This document shows, piece after piece, positions 4,102 through 59,006 of a stretch of DNA of 64,000 bases. The notes below the pieces were generated by a model that was given only the letters and a program-made list of their open reading frames with translations, did not search any database and was not told the origin of the DNA. Every line of letters begins with the position of its first letter. Position 1 is the stretch's first letter. The stretch is from Deltaproteobacteria bacterium (GTDB lineage: Bacteria > Desulfobacterota > Dissulfuribacteria > Dissulfuribacterales > QOAL01): contig JAJRZR010000055.1 in the NCBI GenBank assembly GCA_024275145.1, positions 22,797-86,796 of the forward strand, read 5' to 3'. The translations under genes and the position numbers were made by a program.

Positions 4102-5533
4102 GGCTTTTCCTTCCAATTCTGTACAAAATATCCTGCGCGGACTTCCCAAGATGGATAAGCTTTTGGCTGAAATGCCTAGCGACATCCCGCATAATGTCAA
4201 GCTCTCTGCCTGTAGACAAATACTTGAAACACTAAGATCCCAGATACTTGCCGGCAAGATGGCTGATATCCCCCCTATGAATGAACTGGTCTCGGATGCC
4301 GCAGAACTCGCCTTCCAAAGGTTAAGCCCTTCATTGCGTCCGGTTGTAAACGCAACAGGGGTGGTCATTCATACAAATCTGGGCAGATCCCTCCTGCCCA
4401 AGGAAATATTCCCTACCTTAACCGGGATAGCAGGCCGTTATTCCAACCTTGAATATAATCTCCATGCAGGGGAAAGGGGAAGTAGATACAGCCACGTGGA
4501 AGGAATCCTAAAGGAACTCACTGGGGCGGAGAGCGCACTTGTGGTGAACAACAACGCCGCCGCGGTCCTGATAACCCTAGAGACCCTGGCAAAGGGGAAA
4601 GAGGCCGTCGTATCAAGGGGTGAACTTGTTGAAATTGGAGGATCATTCAGAATCCCCGACGTGATGGCCCGCAGCGGGGCTATCCTGCGGGAGGTGGGGG
4701 CGACGAACAGGACCCACCTCAGGGATTATGCCGGGGCGATTGGGGACCAGACCGCCTTGCTGATGAAGGTACACCAAAGCAACTTTTCCATCGTAGGCTT
4801 CACGAAATCGGTATCGGTGAAAGAGTTGTCCACGTTGGCACGCAGCCACGATTTGCCCCTTTATGAAGACCTAGGAAGCGGCAACCTCGTGGATCTGAGT
4901 TCATTTGGTATCGTTCATGAGCCAACCGTTCAGGAAACCCTGGAGGCAGGGGCAGACCTGGTGAGTTTTAGTGGTGATAAACTGTTGGGAGGACCCCAGG
5001 CAGGAATAATAGTAGGACGGGGAAATCTGGTTGATAGGATCAAAAGGAATCCACTCAACAGGGCCTTGAGAATAGACAAACTGACATTGGCGGCCCTTGA
5101 AGGAGTCCTGAGAATATACCGTGAACCTGAGAAGGCCGTCAATGCCATCCCTACCCTGCGTATGCTTACAACACCGACAAAGGAGGTACGGCGAAAGGCT
5201 GGAATACTCCTTAATCAGCTACGCTCATTGAGCCTGCCTATTGGTCTGGAGATCATTGATACGGTTTCAAGGGTAGGAGGTGGTGCCATGCCGCTTCAAC
5301 GTATCAAGTCGGCTGCGGTCAGCCTTGAGCCTGGCAGAGCTTGGGCGGTCGATGCCTCTGTATCCAGGTTAGAGAAGGCATTGAGACAAAATGAGCCCCC
5401 TATAATAGTCCGTATGGAGAATGAAAAAATTATTATGGATCTGCGAACCGTTCAGGACAATGAAATCCCCCTGATTGTAGAGGGAGTAAGGACGGCAGTG
5501 GTAAAGTTTGAAAGAAAAATCTATGAGGATTAG
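4100..5533 (+). CDS. selA: L-seryl-tRNA(Sec) selenium transferase
   Basis: RPVVNATGVVIHTNLGRSLL, EDLGSGNLVDL, SFSGDKLLGGPQAGIIVG motifs; start at 4100 preceded by AGGAG SD. Confidence 0.95.
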   Translation: MAFPSNSVQNILRGLPKMDKLLAEMPSDIPHNVKLSACRQILETLRSQILAGKMADIPPMNELVSDAAELAFQRLSPSLRPVVNATGVVIHTNLGRSLLPKEIFPTLTGIAGRYSNLEYNLHAGERGSRYSHVEGILKELTGAESALVVNNNAAAVLITLETLAKGKEAVVSRGELVEIGGSFRIPDVMARSGAILREVGATNRTHLRDYAGAIGDQTALLMKVHQSNFSIVGFTKSVSVKELSTLARSHDLPLYEDLGSGNLVDLSSFGIVHEPTVQETLEAGADLVSFSGDKLLGGPQAGIIVGRGNLVDRIKRNPLNRALRIDKLTLAALEGVLRIYREPEKAVNAIPTLRMLTTPTKEVRRKAGILLNQLRSLSLPIGLEIIDTVSRVGGGAMPLQRIKSAAVSLEPGRAWAVDASVSRLEKALRQNEPPIIVRMENEKIIMDLRTVQDNEIPLIVEGVRTAVVKFERKIYED

Positions 5534-47066: not shown

Positions 47067-47828
47067 TCAGAGTACCTTTATCCTGGTCCCCTTCCTGAGT
47101 GCAGCCTTCAGGATTCCACGGCGGCCCAAGTCTTCGATTCCGTTGTCTACGGTCTCCCAGGTACGTTCCCGTGGGGCATAATGTTTAAACAACAGATTCA
47201 GGTCCTTTGGTTTCCCCACCCAGTAGACGTTTGGTCCTATCTGTACCACCTTGGACTGGAGCCTCTTGGCCCCACCGTGGACAAGCTTGTGTACCCTGGA
47301 ATTGCTGTCGTAAAGATCACCAAAAATCCTCGCATCCGCTATACAGGTCTTTACACATGCCGGGATTTCACCCCGGGAGATACGTTCGTAGCAGAAGGTA
47401 CACTTATCGGCCTTGGGCTCGTCAAGGGTCTCGTCCAGATAGCGTGCATGGTATGGGCATGCCTCCACGCAGGCGCCACAGCCGATACACCGTTCCTTGT
47501 CGATAAGGACAGCGCCGGTAAAGGGCTCCTTATATGTGGCCTTTACCGTCATTTTCTTTGTTTTTCCTGTCCTGAAGTCCTTAAATACCTTGTCGACAGG
47601 ATCTGCCGGGCAGACCTCTACGCATACAGGATGGTCACAATGGTTACACAGTCCTGGGTAGAAGGTGTAAGACATGCCTTCAGGGGTCATCTCAGGCCCC
47701 ATCCTCTTTACCCAATTCCTCCTGTACCCTGGTTGTACCGGCACATGCCACTCCGCCCGGCAGGCAAGGGCACAGGCATGACAGCCTACACAACGATTTA
47801 GATCTATTACCATGGCGTACTGACTCAT
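47067..47828 (-). CDS. 4Fe-4S subunit of molybdopterin oxidoreductase (PsrB/TtrB-like)
   Basis: CVGCHACALACR, CNHCDHPVCVEVCP, CIGCGACVEACPYHARYL, CTFCYERI...CVKTC. Confidence 0.93.
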   Translation of the reverse strand: MSQYAMVIDLNRCVGCHACALACRAEWHVPVQPGYRRNWVKRMGPEMTPEGMSYTFYPGLCNHCDHPVCVEVCPADPVDKVFKDFRTGKTKKMTVKATYKEPFTGAVLIDKERCIGCGACVEACPYHARYLDETLDEPKADKCTFCYERISRGEIPACVKTCIADARIFGDLYDSNSRVHKLVHGGAKRLQSKVVQIGPNVYWVGKPKDLNLLFKHYAPRERTWETVDNGIEDLGRRGILKAALRKGTRIKVL

Positions 47829-47842
47829 CTATATTACCTCCC

Positions 47843-50146
47843 CTAGGACTGTTCTATCTGGAAACGTGGAATTTCTGGTGGAACACACACGAGTTCCGGG
47901 ATATTAAGTGTTTTTCCATCCTTTATTATCCTGACAAAATCGGTTCTGTGGCTGGATGCCCCCATGAAGGGATCATTCTTGTAGTGGGTGATCAGGAACT
48001 GGTCACTGGCGCCACGCTTGTAGGCCCTTTTGAGGAAGGGGGACCTGGAACCAAATCCATGGTCGATATAGATGGCATCCGGCCGGATTCCTGGTGTCAC
48101 CTTGACTTTTATACCCAATGAACGGTATCCATTCTGGTTCTCCAGTATGACGGTATCCCCATCCTTTAAGCCGATCTTGCTAGCCACTTCATCATTGACC
48201 CATGCGTGATTTTCAGGCCATTCATTGTGAAGCCACAGGTTGTTCATGGTCCGGCTGAACGTGTGGACCGGGGCGCGGCCATAGATGAGCCGCGCAAAAC
48301 CCTCTGGAGGTGCAGGTGCCGGTATGAACTCTGGTACAGGAGGCAGATCTTCATCCGCGAAATCGCTGACCGAAAGTTGAATTTTACCGGATTCGGTTGG
48401 GACCTTGAGTGAATCCTTATCCCTGTAGGGCTTACCAGGATATGTTACGATTCCTCCCTTTTTGTTCAAAGAGGCAATGCTCAATCCAGCCTCCTTCAAC
48501 TCTTCGTTTATGAAATCCTCTTCCTTTTCACAGGAAAGCCCTTTCAACTTGAGCTTTTTAGCAAGCTGTTTGGCAGTCCAGAAAGGAGGCTTGGCCTCGA
48601 ACATGGGCTCTACTACCGGTTGTCTCAAGGTGAGGTAAGGTGTTATGCCATCGTAGACGTAGACACCATCGTAACGTTCCAGGTAGGTTGCGCCTGGAAG
48701 GACTATATCGGACCACAAGGCCGTCTCCCCCATGAGCATCTCCTCGCAGAAGATGAAATCCAGCTTTTTGATGGCCTTCATGGTGTCATATGGATTTGGA
48801 ATGGTCTGGAGTATATTCACACCGTTTATGCCCCAAAGCTTGATCGGATAAGGCTCGCCGGTGAGCGTGGCCTTTATTATGGCCGCGGTGGGACTTCCAG
48901 GGAATGGCTCCACAAAGGGATAATTGTCCCTGAGTGATGTCTCTGGTTCCTCGGAGGGGAGTTTTTCACATTTCAGACATTCGGCGTGGCCTTTGACTAC
49001 AGGTGTCTGAAATATGATCCCACCCTTGGCGCCCACAGTACCGAATAGCGCCCCGAGTATGGCAAGGGCCTGGTGCCTTCCAACATCTCCATTGCCATAC
49101 CAGGCTGAATGCCTCCCCGGGTGTATCGTCAGGTTGGGCCTGTACCTGGCCAGGAGCAATATCGCCTGCTCCATATCATCGACTTTTAGATCACAGATCC
49201 TTGCAGCCCAGGAAAGGGTATATTTCTTGACCGATTGCCTCAATCGCTCGAATCCTTCGCAATTTTTCTCTACGAAGTCCTTGTCATACAGATTATGCTC
49301 AATGACATAGTTTATCCATGTAAGGAGAAGTGCCGTATCCGTCCCAGGCCGTATGGGCAGGTATATGTCCGCCTTGTTGGCCGGTGCTGAGAACCTGGGG
49401 TCCACTACCACGAGCTTTGCACCCTTTGCCAGGCCCTCCACATATTCCCTTACGTGTGAAACGTGGACGTTTTCACCGATATGGCTGCCCACAAGCAGGA
49501 TGGCCTTTGCGTTGGCCATGTCGATATATTGTCTTGTCCCGGAGACTATATATCCCATGGTGGACATATAAGATACGGCTACCGGCCCCACACACTGAAA
49601 GAAGGCAGGCTCATTGGAATAATTCTCGGTCCCAAGTGCCTTGAAGATCTCACGCAGGAATTCAGCAGAGGCTCCATGATCAAAATAGGCAAGGGAGCTT
49701 GGGCCGTATTTCTTCCTGACCTTATCCATGTTAAAGGCGATCTCGTCTAGGGCTTCATCCCACGAGATCTTTGCCCATTTCCCTTCCCCCCTGGCACCAA
49801 CCCTTTTCAGGGGATATTTGACCCTATCAGGGTCATAAAGGAGCTGAACGCCAGAATTTCCCCTGGCGCACACCCTGGTGCCATTTACCGGGCTTTTGGG
49901 GTTGCCTTCTATCTTCACCAGTTTGCCATTCTTGACCTTGGCAACTATGGGACAGCGCCAAAAGCACATCTCGCAAACCGAGGTGACCTCCTTTGCCCCT
50001 AGGCTACCCGGCAGTTGGCCGGTGGAGGCGTCAGCCATGGTCGGGCTGAACAGGCCGCCCCCCAGCCCCTGTTTCCCTCCAGTTCCCAGGGCTGCCATGG
50101 CCATACAAGTGGCAGTGGATAGTTTAAGAAATTCCCGTCTCTTCAT
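47843..50146 (-). CDS. Tat-exported molybdopterin oxidoreductase catalytic subunit (Psr/Phs/Ttr-like)
   Basis: Tat signal MKRREFLKLS; CEMCFWRCPIVAKVKNGKLVKIEGNPKSPVNGTRVCARG; molybdopterin-binding regions; same operon as FeS and TorD. Confidence 0.92.
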   Translation of the reverse strand: MKRREFLKLSTATCMAMAALGTGGKQGLGGGLFSPTMADASTGQLPGSLGAKEVTSVCEMCFWRCPIVAKVKNGKLVKIEGNPKSPVNGTRVCARGNSGVQLLYDPDRVKYPLKRVGARGEGKWAKISWDEALDEIAFNMDKVRKKYGPSSLAYFDHGASAEFLREIFKALGTENYSNEPAFFQCVGPVAVSYMSTMGYIVSGTRQYIDMANAKAILLVGSHIGENVHVSHVREYVEGLAKGAKLVVVDPRFSAPANKADIYLPIRPGTDTALLLTWINYVIEHNLYDKDFVEKNCEGFERLRQSVKKYTLSWAARICDLKVDDMEQAILLLARYRPNLTIHPGRHSAWYGNGDVGRHQALAILGALFGTVGAKGGIIFQTPVVKGHAECLKCEKLPSEEPETSLRDNYPFVEPFPGSPTAAIIKATLTGEPYPIKLWGINGVNILQTIPNPYDTMKAIKKLDFIFCEEMLMGETALWSDIVLPGATYLERYDGVYVYDGITPYLTLRQPVVEPMFEAKPPFWTAKQLAKKLKLKGLSCEKEEDFINEELKEAGLSIASLNKKGGIVTYPGKPYRDKDSLKVPTESGKIQLSVSDFADEDLPPVPEFIPAPAPPEGFARLIYGRAPVHTFSRTMNNLWLHNEWPENHAWVNDEVASKIGLKDGDTVILENQNGYRSLGIKVKVTPGIRPDAIYIDHGFGSRSPFLKRAYKRGASDQFLITHYKNDPFMGASSHRTDFVRIIKDGKTLNIPELVCVPPEIPRFQIEQS

Positions 50147-50681
50147 TAGTAACCTCCTCTATTAATGTATTCAGGCAGGCACCTGTAATCTTATTCAATC
50201 CATGGTAAAAATTGCACGGATTGGCCTTTTGCAGGCACTCCGAAAACAGGGGAAACCACTTCATGAGGTGCCGCCTCAGAAACGAATCAAGAAGCGACAC
50301 CTGTCCTGTTTCCAAGAGATAACCGACAAACGCAAGCTCGTGCGCCAGGTGATCTGGTGGCTCCGGTCCCTTTATCGGCTCTACGCCCGCTTCCCTGTAA
50401 TAGGCCACGGCCTCGTCATATCCCTGTTGATAGAGAAGACCCGCTCCATGTCGATAGACAGAGGCATAGGGTGGCACGATGGTATTACCAGCGGAATTGA
50501 TGAATAGCCTGACATATTCGGCCTGAAACTCCGTTGCCGGGATATCCGGCACATCTTCAATGCCGCAATCCAGATCCTTGTTGAGCAAATTGATGACACG
50601 TGGACCGTGCCTAATGATTTCTTCAGAGGGATAGTAAAATGCCTTGGACAGAAAGTTAAAGGGGTGATTCCTTGTAAGCAT
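50124..50681 (-). CDS. TorD/DmsD-like chaperone for the molybdoenzyme
   Basis: AEYVRLFINSAGNTIVPPYASVY...EPPDHLAHELAFVGYLL; overlaps the molybdoenzyme start by 23 nt. Confidence 0.88.
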   Translation of the reverse strand: MLTRNHPFNFLSKAFYYPSEEIIRHGPRVINLLNKDLDCGIEDVPDIPATEFQAEYVRLFINSAGNTIVPPYASVYRHGAGLLYQQGYDEAVAYYREAGVEPIKGPEPPDHLAHELAFVGYLLETGQVSLLDSFLRRHLMKWFPLFSECLQKANPCNFYHGLNKITGACLNTLIEEVTNEETGIS

Positions 50682-55198: not shown

Positions 55199-55298
55199 CC
55201 ATAAAATATACCGTTAAAGGGGAAGTTTATATCTTGAAAAGGGTCAGCGGGTTGAATTGCGTCTGGGAGAGGGCCTTTGTCCTGGACGTTTCTTGTTC

Positions 55299-55319
55299 TC
55301 CGGTCGGGACCCGACCGGA
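55299..55319 (-). terminator. Perfect hairpin TCCGGTCGGG-A-CCCGACCGGA downstream of the small membrane ORF
   Basis: 10-bp perfect stem with 1-nt loop, about 15 nt past the stop of the 29-aa minus-strand ORF; no strong T-tract. Confidence 0.4.
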
Positions 55320-55333
55320 CAGGATGGAGCAGC

Positions 55334-55423
55334 TCAAGTAGAGATGCCAAGCTTTGGAAGAAGCCACTTGTTTATCCCTAACCATATGAAGACAAAAAAG
55401 ATTAACAGAAGTATTTGATCCAT
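55334..55423 (-). CDS. Putative 29-aa single-pass membrane microprotein
   Basis: MDQILLLIFFVFIWLGINKWLLPKLGIST; upstream AAAGGAAAGGT-ATG SD; not in the ORF track because of length. Confidence 0.55.
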   Translation of the reverse strand: MDQILLLIFFVFIWLGINKWLLPKLGIST

Positions 55424-55471
55424 ACCTTTCCTTTATCCTGGCCTTGCAAATTGAAGAACCGGGATCGATTC

Positions 55472-55510
55472 AGCCCGGAGCGAGCGGTTTCGATCCGACC
55501 GCTCCGGGCT
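55472..55510 (-). terminator. GC-rich hairpin downstream of the triheme cytochrome gene
   Basis: AGCCCGGAGCG ... CGCTCCGGGCT 11-bp stem between convergent genes. Confidence 0.5.
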
Positions 55511-55545: not shown

Positions 55546-55950
55546 CTACTCACCTTCATGGCCGTTGCCTTCCGCCTTCGGGCCGGTCAGCCGATTATAA
55601 CCCTTTACTCCTATATGGCACGCCGTGCACCGTGTATTTGAGGCAAACGCAGTTTCTCCATCATGGCATGCGCCGCAATATTTACCTTCATAGAGGGACT
55701 TCATGGTAAAATCGGGATTCTGTTCAGCAGTACCCGCGGCCATTTCAAATGGATCATCATGACAGCTATCGCAGTCAAGGCCTTGCGCCAGATGAACCTT
55801 GTGCTCAAAGATCACTGCCTTGACAGGTTTTGTGAATATGATGGTTCCACCGCCCTCTTCTTCATCCTGAGCAAAGGCCTGGATAGATACGGCCAACATT
55901 CCAAAAACAACCAAAATTCCTATTATCTTGAATAGATAAGAACTTTTCAT
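55546..55950 (-). CDS. Triheme c-type (c7-like) cytochrome, periplasmic
   Basis: Signal peptide; CDSCH, CGACH, CTACH haem motifs with extra His (EHKVH). Confidence 0.9.
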   Translation of the reverse strand: MKSSYLFKIIGILVVFGMLAVSIQAFAQDEEEGGGTIIFTKPVKAVIFEHKVHLAQGLDCDSCHDDPFEMAAGTAEQNPDFTMKSLYEGKYCGACHDGETAFASNTRCTACHIGVKGYNRLTGPKAEGNGHEGE

Positions 55951-55968: not shown

Positions 55969-56709
55969 TTAATCATTCATGTAAAATACACAGGGCTTGG
56001 CGCCGCATTCAGGCCTGAGCACCCAGACAATTTTATCCGGTTGGAAGACGAGCTTATAGACCTCGCTCTCCTTATCGGACAGGTCCCCGAAGATTCTCAC
56101 ATGGGCAGGACAGGCAGCCGCGCATGCAGTAAGTTTTTCTCCCTTGGAAAGACGTGTATCCCAGCAGAAATTACACTTATCTATTGCCCGTTTCTCTTCA
56201 TCAAAGTAGCGGGCATTATAGGGACAGGCGGCCATGCAGGTCTTGCATCCAATGCATTTGTCTATATTCATCATTACGATGCCGTTTTGGGGATCCTTGT
56301 AGGTGGCCTTTGTGGGGCATACCCTGACGCAAGGAGGATTCAGACAATGGTTACACAAGACTGGCATAAAAACCCTGAAGGGCTCTCCCTCGTCGGTAAT
56401 GACCTCTTTCTCAAGGATTGTAGTGCGGTAGCCATAATCCGGAACATGGTTGGTGAGCTTGCAGGCCTTCTTGCATCTTTCACAATCTATGCAGTGATTT
56501 TGAATAATCACCATGGAGTAATGGGGCTTATATTTGGTATGTCGGTAGCCCTCCATCTCCATTAGTGCCCTGGCCTCCTCGGGAAGCGGTACCACCGAAA
56601 GCACTGTTCCTCCGGCTAAAACACCCGTGATCTTGAGACCCAGTTTCAGAAAGGTTCTTCTTTCTTCATCGGTAATCTTGGCAGGTTTCTTGGACCGTTC
56701 TTCTTTCAC
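55969..56709 (-). CDS. Tat-exported 4x[4Fe-4S] ferredoxin-like protein (DsrO/PsrB-type)
   Basis: Tat motif ERRTFLKLGL; CIDCERCKKAC, CNHCLNPPCVRVCP, CIGCKTCMAACPYNARYF, CNFCWDTR. Confidence 0.9.
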   Translation of the reverse strand: MKEERSKKPAKITDEERRTFLKLGLKITGVLAGGTVLSVVPLPEEARALMEMEGYRHTKYKPHYSMVIIQNHCIDCERCKKACKLTNHVPDYGYRTTILEKEVITDEGEPFRVFMPVLCNHCLNPPCVRVCPTKATYKDPQNGIVMMNIDKCIGCKTCMAACPYNARYFDEEKRAIDKCNFCWDTRLSKGEKLTACAAACPAHVRIFGDLSDKESEVYKLVFQPDKIVWVLRPECGAKPCVFYMND

Positions 56710-58598: not shown

Positions 58599-59006
58599 AT
58601 GCCCAAAAAAGCGGTAGCCACAAAATCTGGAGCAAAAACACGTCTTTCGAGACCAGGTCCCAAGGTCCCAGTTTACCCGATTGGCGTGGCCGCCCGTTTA
58701 CTGGATGTCCATCCGAGGACATTGAGACTCTACGAGGCTGAAGGCCTTGTCAGGCCTCAGTACAAGGGCTCAAGAAGGCTTTACTCCCAAAGTGATATCC
58801 AATGGATTTCCTGCCTTCGTTCCATGATACATGACGAAGGTATAAGTATCCCTGGCCTCAAACGGCTGCTGGCACTGATACCGTGCTGGGAAATCAACGG
58901 TTGTCCCGAGGAAGTCTACAAAAACTGCGACGCCAGGATGGAAGTACAACAGGAAGGTACCACTAGATACTGCAAGAAATGTGGAGAGCCCTTTTCTTCC
59001 TCCTAG
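58599..59006 (+). CDS. MerR-family (HspR-like) regulator with C-terminal Cys cluster
   Basis: YPIGVAARLLDVHPRTLRLYEAEGLVRPQYKGSRRLYSQSDIQWI; tail CWEINGCPEEVYKNCDAR...YCKKCGEPF. Confidence 0.9.
   Translation: MPKKAVATKSGAKTRLSRPGPKVPVYPIGVAARLLDVHPRTLRLYEAEGLVRPQYKGSRRLYSQSDIQWISCLRSMIHDEGISIPGLKRLLALIPCWEINGCPEEVYKNCDARMEVQQEGTTRYCKKCGEPFSSS

Follow-up and report, generated by a model that had tools for sequence, protein, structure and literature searches.

The window, the whole 64,000-nucleotide stretch of DNA that was analysed, contains on its minus strand a short open reading frame (55423-55334) that starts with an ATG at 55423 and runs for 29 codons, MDQILLLIFFVFIWLGINKWLLPKLGIST, before a TGA at 55336-55334. 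A Shine-Dalgarno-like sequence, AAAGGAAAGG (55425-55434), is found just ahead of the ATG; its counterpart in the sister species is AAGGGGAAGA. Both elements are present as given in a preliminary description of this DNA, which took the frame for a complete 29-amino acid membrane microprotein. When the TGA is read as selenocysteine (Sec, U) the product has 59 amino acids, MDQILLLIFFVFIWLGINKWLLPKLGIST-U-AAPSCPVGSRPENKKRPGQRPSPRRNSTR, with 29 further residues leading to a second TGA. The full coding sequence of 59 codons, with U as residue 30, occupies positions 55247-55423 of the minus strand. It includes the Sec UGA codon (55334-55336), the codon for Cys35 five residues past Sec (U-x4-C, 55319-55321) and a hairpin (55299-55319), and is followed by the TGA considered the true stop (55244-55246), beyond which the sister species has neither conserved coding nor a SECIS-like fold. 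A role of this second UGA as another Sec codon was rejected because it is unconserved and has no hairpin in the sister species. Upstream on the same strand are the genes for a triheme c7-type cytochrome (55546-55950; PF14522, TIGR04257) and for an Fe-S protein resembling TtrB, DsrO and NrfC (55969-56709; all matches below cut-off), so the location downstream of cytochrome and FeS genes was correctly described.

The 59-amino acid sequence, with the UGA position entered as Cys, was used as the query in a search of 60 near genomes. Relatives were found in most of them, with an in-frame TGA in every convincing match and with coding continuing beyond it for 14-57 residues. Conservation in frame, which had been named as the decisive property of the proposed microprotein, was strong, with E values of 2e-27 for the sister species and 7e-16 for another family. 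The membrane protein is therefore real and conserved, but its end at 55334 and its length of 29 amino acids did not stand, the product having 59 amino acids with selenocysteine. The codon at the Sec position is TGA in 103 of 103 distinct members and is aligned with the Cys codons TGC or TGT in Planctomycetota. A Cys at +5 from Sec is found in 83 of the 103 members, encoded by TGT in 38 and by TGC in 45, and the Ser that precedes it is specified by both TCN and AGY codons. Some members have no Cys after Sec, indicating that the protein does not depend on a Sec-Cys pair. Twenty-four independent close pairs were used to compare substitutions on both sides of the UGA. The pN/pS ratio was 0.18 before it and 0.27 in the 33 nucleotides after it, while pS was 0.53 before and 0.33 after, a reduction that is expected if the RNA is also constrained. 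Comparison of the sequences leaves hardly any doubt that what was taken for a 29-residue microprotein forms the N-terminal half of a small membrane selenoprotein, with Sec inserted at the UGA that looks like a stop. Ordinary gene calling at this locus would yield nothing or a 29-amino acid fragment.

The hairpin in the window, TCCGGTCGG-GTC-CCGACCGGA (55319-55299), starts 14 nucleotides past the first TGA, is perfectly paired and has a folding energy of -16 kcal/mol. The preliminary description reported a perfect hairpin downstream of the frame; the hairpin exists, but with a 9-bp stem and a 3-nucleotide loop rather than a 10-bp stem and a 1-nucleotide loop, and it lies inside the coding sequence. 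Published criteria for bacterial SECIS elements are a loop of 3-9 nucleotides, a stem of 4-16 bp, a G in the first two loop bases, a distance of 16-37 nucleotides from the UGA and a minimum free energy of -7.5 kcal/mol or lower (PMC13188914). The hairpin lies within every one of these limits, with a GUC loop located 23 nucleotides past the UGA, a 9-bp stem and -16 kcal/mol. The stem was paired in 96.3% of the cells of an alignment of 40 members sharing the same register, a percentage biased towards structure since these members were picked for pairing in that register. In the same 40 members, 82 cells were double-changed compared with 27.8 in shuffles, and pairing was at most 44% once the partner strand was slid by one base. 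The covariation score was 0.771, compared with 0.276 after shuffling and at most 0.191 after sliding, and compensatory changes were thus detected. In an unselected count, a stem without gaps, 6 bp or longer and with a loop starting with G, is found at SECIS distance in 80 of the 103 members, compared with 4.7% of shuffles. The mean fold z-score against synonymous recoding was -1.36, and the window hairpin alone gave a modest z-score of -1.1 to -1.6. No T-run follows the window hairpin and no terminator is listed there. Its function as a transcription terminator was rejected on the lack of a T-run and on its covariation at a constant spacing from the UGA. An Rfam search of the window produced no matches. 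On these comparisons, the hairpin at 55299-55319 is identified as the SECIS of the Sec UGA.

Profile A1 detected family members in 173 of the 395 genomes sampled from the window's phylum (about 44%) and in 116 of 246 genera. Thirty genomes, mainly those with the weakest matches, were re-inspected. Apart from the weak match G363, which was in neither list, all had a TGA except for two matches (G419 and G131, E about 0.002), which were rejected because they look like chance. A scan of named genomes identified the phylum as Deltaproteobacteria/Desulfobacterota and located the family also in Spirochaetota (25 of 198 sampled genomes) and Planctomycetota (about 40 of 392; 42 at E <= 0.001, including three marginal ones). 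Matches on viral contigs were rejected, both being unrelated arginine-rich frames matched by chance, and a plasmid search with one Cys form and one Sec form found no match. The consensus is M(D/E)xxLxLxxxxxWxxxN(R/K)WxLP(K/R)(L/F/M)Gxx(T/S)U(M/A/G)xxSC followed by a short, usually basic tail, and P23 and G26 are invariant in A1.

Ten Cys forms (TCLSGMC, TCMSGGC, TCLSGSC and similar), in which C is aligned with U, were seen only in Planctomycetota. The SECIS stem was absent from all 10 of them (mean z -0.07) and present in 35 of the 51 Sec forms in the same set of loci (mean z -1.28; Fisher p = 6e-5), a set drawn from Spirochaetota, Planctomycetota and, in a few cases, the window's phylum. A protein that ends at the UGA, with the hairpin acting as a transcription terminator or stabiliser, would agree with UGA being an ordinary stop in this code and with the strong GC hairpin right after it, but is scarcely credible given the coding conservation past the UGA, the absence of TAA and TAG at this codon among 103 members, the Sec/Cys pairing, the lack of a U-tract after the hairpin and its absence in Cys homologues.

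Members with additional UGA codons or copies were also encountered. In homologues from genus g3 (L026, L027, L028, L031, L033, L034, L035, L037 and L038) another UGA is present in frame, after which come DGPSCSIGGQSKK, with variants, and a SECIS-like hairpin; the motif is repeated around this second UGA as PTUDGPSCSIGGQSKK. These homologues probably represent a form with two selenocysteines whose first unit no longer has its Cys. Five spirochaete genomes (G425, G544, G570, G592 and G621) each have a second, more divergent TGA-containing paralogue, and two divergent members, L249 (G084) and L250 (G253), consist of two tandem copies or partial copies, each with an in-frame TGA.

The source assembly has the machinery to decode the UGA, namely one clear tRNA-Sec (73 bits, ARAGORN anticodon TCA), SelB (352 bits) and, inside the window on the plus strand, the selenocysteine synthase SelA (4133-5488; TIGR00474, 603 bits; G000:C39:26929-28284, the window starting at C39:22797). 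SelA was found in about 166 of the 173 family-positive genomes of the window's phylum (Fisher p = 3e-4) and was not found in the family-positive genomes G050, G112, G210, G255, G307, G334 and G421. At least two of these seven, G112 and G307, were rated nearly complete, and missing pieces are therefore no obvious explanation for all seven absences. Apart from G804 and G790, the two Cys-only genomes tested, in which SelA was not found, 16 of 18 family-positive planctomycetes have SelA, and it was not found in the Sec-form planctomycetes G673 and G746. Most, but not all, of these two genomes and the seven of the window's phylum look incomplete. Genome G428, which has one Sec copy and one Cys copy, has SelA.

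Scans of 35 members against Pfam and NCBIfam gave only chance-level, unrelated matches. A 2026 review catalogues 119 prokaryotic selenoprotein families in its Table 1 (PMC13188914), and none of them was recognisable as this family by name or Sec motif, the comparison being based on Sec motifs, names and NCBIfam r20 models. The selenoprotein family appears to be new to Pfam and NCBIfam, with no recognisable match among the 119 listed families, from which it is set apart by name and motif only. It shares with catalogued prokaryotic selenoproteins the in-frame UGA, the bacterial SECIS, the existence of Sec/Cys homologues and a Cys near Sec, and differs from them in that Sec comes after a lone N-terminal transmembrane helix in the motif LP[KR]xGxx[TS]U-x4-C. 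Published selenoprotein finders rely on Cys homologues, and families that lack them may be discarded, according to the deep-Sep authors (PMC12013277). The rarity of the Cys forms and their restriction to Planctomycetota could be the cause of the family having been missed. It may rank among the more widespread bacterial selenoproteins in the window's phylum. Two members match the model NF006612 (best E 0.002), and the N-terminus of F-type ATP synthase subunit b/b' likewise has a transmembrane helix that leads into an LPR(I/L)G-like turn; nonetheless, the family has no long coiled coil and is below the NF006612 range, so that the likeness is likely superficial. Among eukaryotic proteins, SELENOK and SELENOS are also small, cross the membrane once and have Sec in a polar tail on the cytosolic side. 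The likeness to them is one of description, and in these proteins Sec is near the extreme C-terminus and the SECIS, of the eukaryotic type, is in the 3'UTR.

AlphaFold2 modelled the protein as a single helix spanning residues 2-24 with an unstructured tail, at a mean pLDDT of 68 and about 90 over residues 1-20. The transmembrane helix (55352-55420, minus strand) runs into the conserved LPKLG turn. The net charge of the first four residues was zero or negative in 87 of 96 members, and the C-terminal side had a mean charge of +3.2 in the same 96. An acidic N-terminus and a basic tail suggest, by the positive-inside rule, an N-out/C-in orientation with the tail and its Sec and Cys facing the cytoplasm. 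From composition and the model, Sec30 and, usually, Cys35 are predicted to lie at the cytoplasmic face of the membrane, some six residues beyond the end of the helix.

A functional context was found in Planctomycetota. The Cys form of G804 is separated by about 10 nucleotides from a preceding MBL-rhodanese gene and extends to the start of a gene for an FAD disulfide oxidoreductase, with TauE upstream. The same gene order was found for five more Cys forms (L303, L304, L305, L306 and L309), making a total of six between MBL-rhodanese and SQR-like genes, although several of these loci are close relatives and part of their neighbours were run against libraries. A Sec form, L310, is the small gene (X) in the arrangement rhodanese/YgaP-TM–TauE–MBL/rhodanese–X–DUF1641–SQR–CoA-disulfide reductase/rhodanese. 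Compared with human mitochondrial SQOR, the SQR neighbour of L310 reached 452 bits, and its MBL-rhodanese neighbour reached 490 bits with 3tp9 and 87 bits with chain 5ve3 of BpPRF, which we take to be a persulfide dioxygenase-rhodanese fusion. Another Sec form, L312, comes after a rhodanese/YgaP-TM gene. The SQR-like proteins at L310:2783-3964 and L303:3667-4914 have no Sec and gave a below-cut-off match to SQR_III, the NCBIfam selenoprotein subtype, and, despite this match, human SQOR is the nearest PDB relative of the L310 protein. The SQR, persulfide dioxygenase and rhodanese families handle sulfane sulfur, and the presence of the gene in their operons favours a membrane-tethered selenol/thiol relay. 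Although Cys and Sec forms of planctomycetes occur within such SQR–persulfide dioxygenase/rhodanese–TauE operons, most family members lie outside them, and the linkage, observed for six Cys forms and a single Sec form of these bacteria, does not extend to the window locus. No description of a small protein as a component of SQR/persulfide dioxygenase operons was found in the limited collection of literature searched.

We propose that SelB-bound Sec-tRNA would read the UGA at codon 30 guided by the SECIS 23 nucleotides downstream, as comparative genomics suggests. The N-terminal helix would span the membrane and hold Sec30 and usually Cys35 at the cytoplasmic face, as composition and model predict. 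There, the selenol/thiol could act as a membrane-tethered acceptor or relay for sulfane sulfur (as persulfide or selenenyl-sulfide) or for the reducing equivalents needed for its release, connecting quinone-linked sulfur enzymes with cytosolic rhodanese, persulfide dioxygenase or thioredoxin. This combination of a membrane-anchored selenoprotein with a sulfur-relay proposal is, as a whole and on the sequence comparisons, the probable explanation of the locus. The relay role of the family, suggested by the operons, is a reasonable possibility to which we give somewhat less than even weight. We infer the orientation, the chemistry and the same role in the window organism by extrapolation from a small number of planctomycete lineages, several of which are closely related. 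Only tentatively do we suggest that the protein is a membrane-anchored Sec carrier of sulfane sulfur, whose selenol takes up persulfide sulfur at the cytoplasmic face and hands it to rhodanese, dioxygenase or thioredoxin, and that many sulfur-metabolising Desulfobacterota thus need selenium for sulfur trafficking. The family offers a testable link of selenium to sulfane-sulfur chemistry at the membrane.

Selenols are typical of thiol-disulfide and peroxide reductases, and the protein might be a general membrane-associated reductase of this kind, a partner of thioredoxin, CcdA or TlpA. A thioredoxin gene is directly upstream in L165 and L171, and CcdA or TlpA is near several members. However, genes of this kind are seldom found nearby (thioredoxin makes up 2 of the 136 near neighbours counted), there is no Trx fold and the +5 spacing of the Cys is not UxxC, which leaves this function rather unlikely. 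A selenol acting as a ligand that binds a metal or a selenium or sulfur species for trafficking or sensing would suit the invariance of Sec while the second Cys is sometimes lost, as well as the basic flexible tail and the second UGA unit of one genus. We regard it as improbable, as no conserved metal-resistance operon accompanies the gene and ligands are usually one thiol and one selenol.

The preliminary description suggested that the protein could be a small subunit of a membrane redox complex. Within the window's order, the FeS and c7 pair is just upstream in 15 loci, NrfD is alongside in 9 and EngB is convergent downstream in 14; the FeS and NrfD proteins gave below-cut-off matches to DsrO/NrfC/TtrB and HmcC/NrfD/DsrP models, respectively. 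A single-transmembrane protein, TMH1, is found in a DsrO/DsrP-homologue–tetraheme locus of cable bacteria (PMC13047784), and this comparable locus keeps the subunit idea alive locally. Both are small single-transmembrane proteins beside FeS/NrfD/multiheme genes, but TMH1 is described as unique to cable bacteria, no selenoprotein is mentioned in that study (PMC13047784), and the likeness is one of description. Elsewhere in the phylum the gene persists with no fixed partner and adjoins unrelated genes, such as those for GltX, PBP5, methyltransferases, a histidine kinase and other kinases, and thioredoxin. Pfam counts over 136 near neighbours revealed no phylum-wide partner, and no conserved operon partner of the Sec forms was found in Desulfobacterota and Spirochaetota. 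The change of neighbours outside the order indicates that a fixed complex with the cytochrome and FeS proteins is not family-wide. The suggested subunit has proximity within one order in its favour, and co-occurrence was not found outside it; that the selenoprotein is a small subunit of an adjacent FeS/NrfD/c7 quinone-cytochrome complex is, accordingly, a doubtful proposition.

Other features were observed around the locus. A very strong hairpin without a T-run (55471-55510, minus strand; -29.8 kcal/mol, z -5.4) is located between the c7 cytochrome and selenoprotein genes and could be the end or the protection of the cytochrome operon transcript. An HspR-like MerR regulator with a Cys-containing C-terminal part adjoins NrfD in the window (58599-59006) and in L011, L012, L014, L016, L020 and L024, and within the order it is often directly upstream of the selenoprotein. 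Further away in the window, a molybdopterin oxidoreductase, an Fe-S subunit and a NarJ-type chaperone form a respiratory reductase cluster (47067-50681, minus strand).
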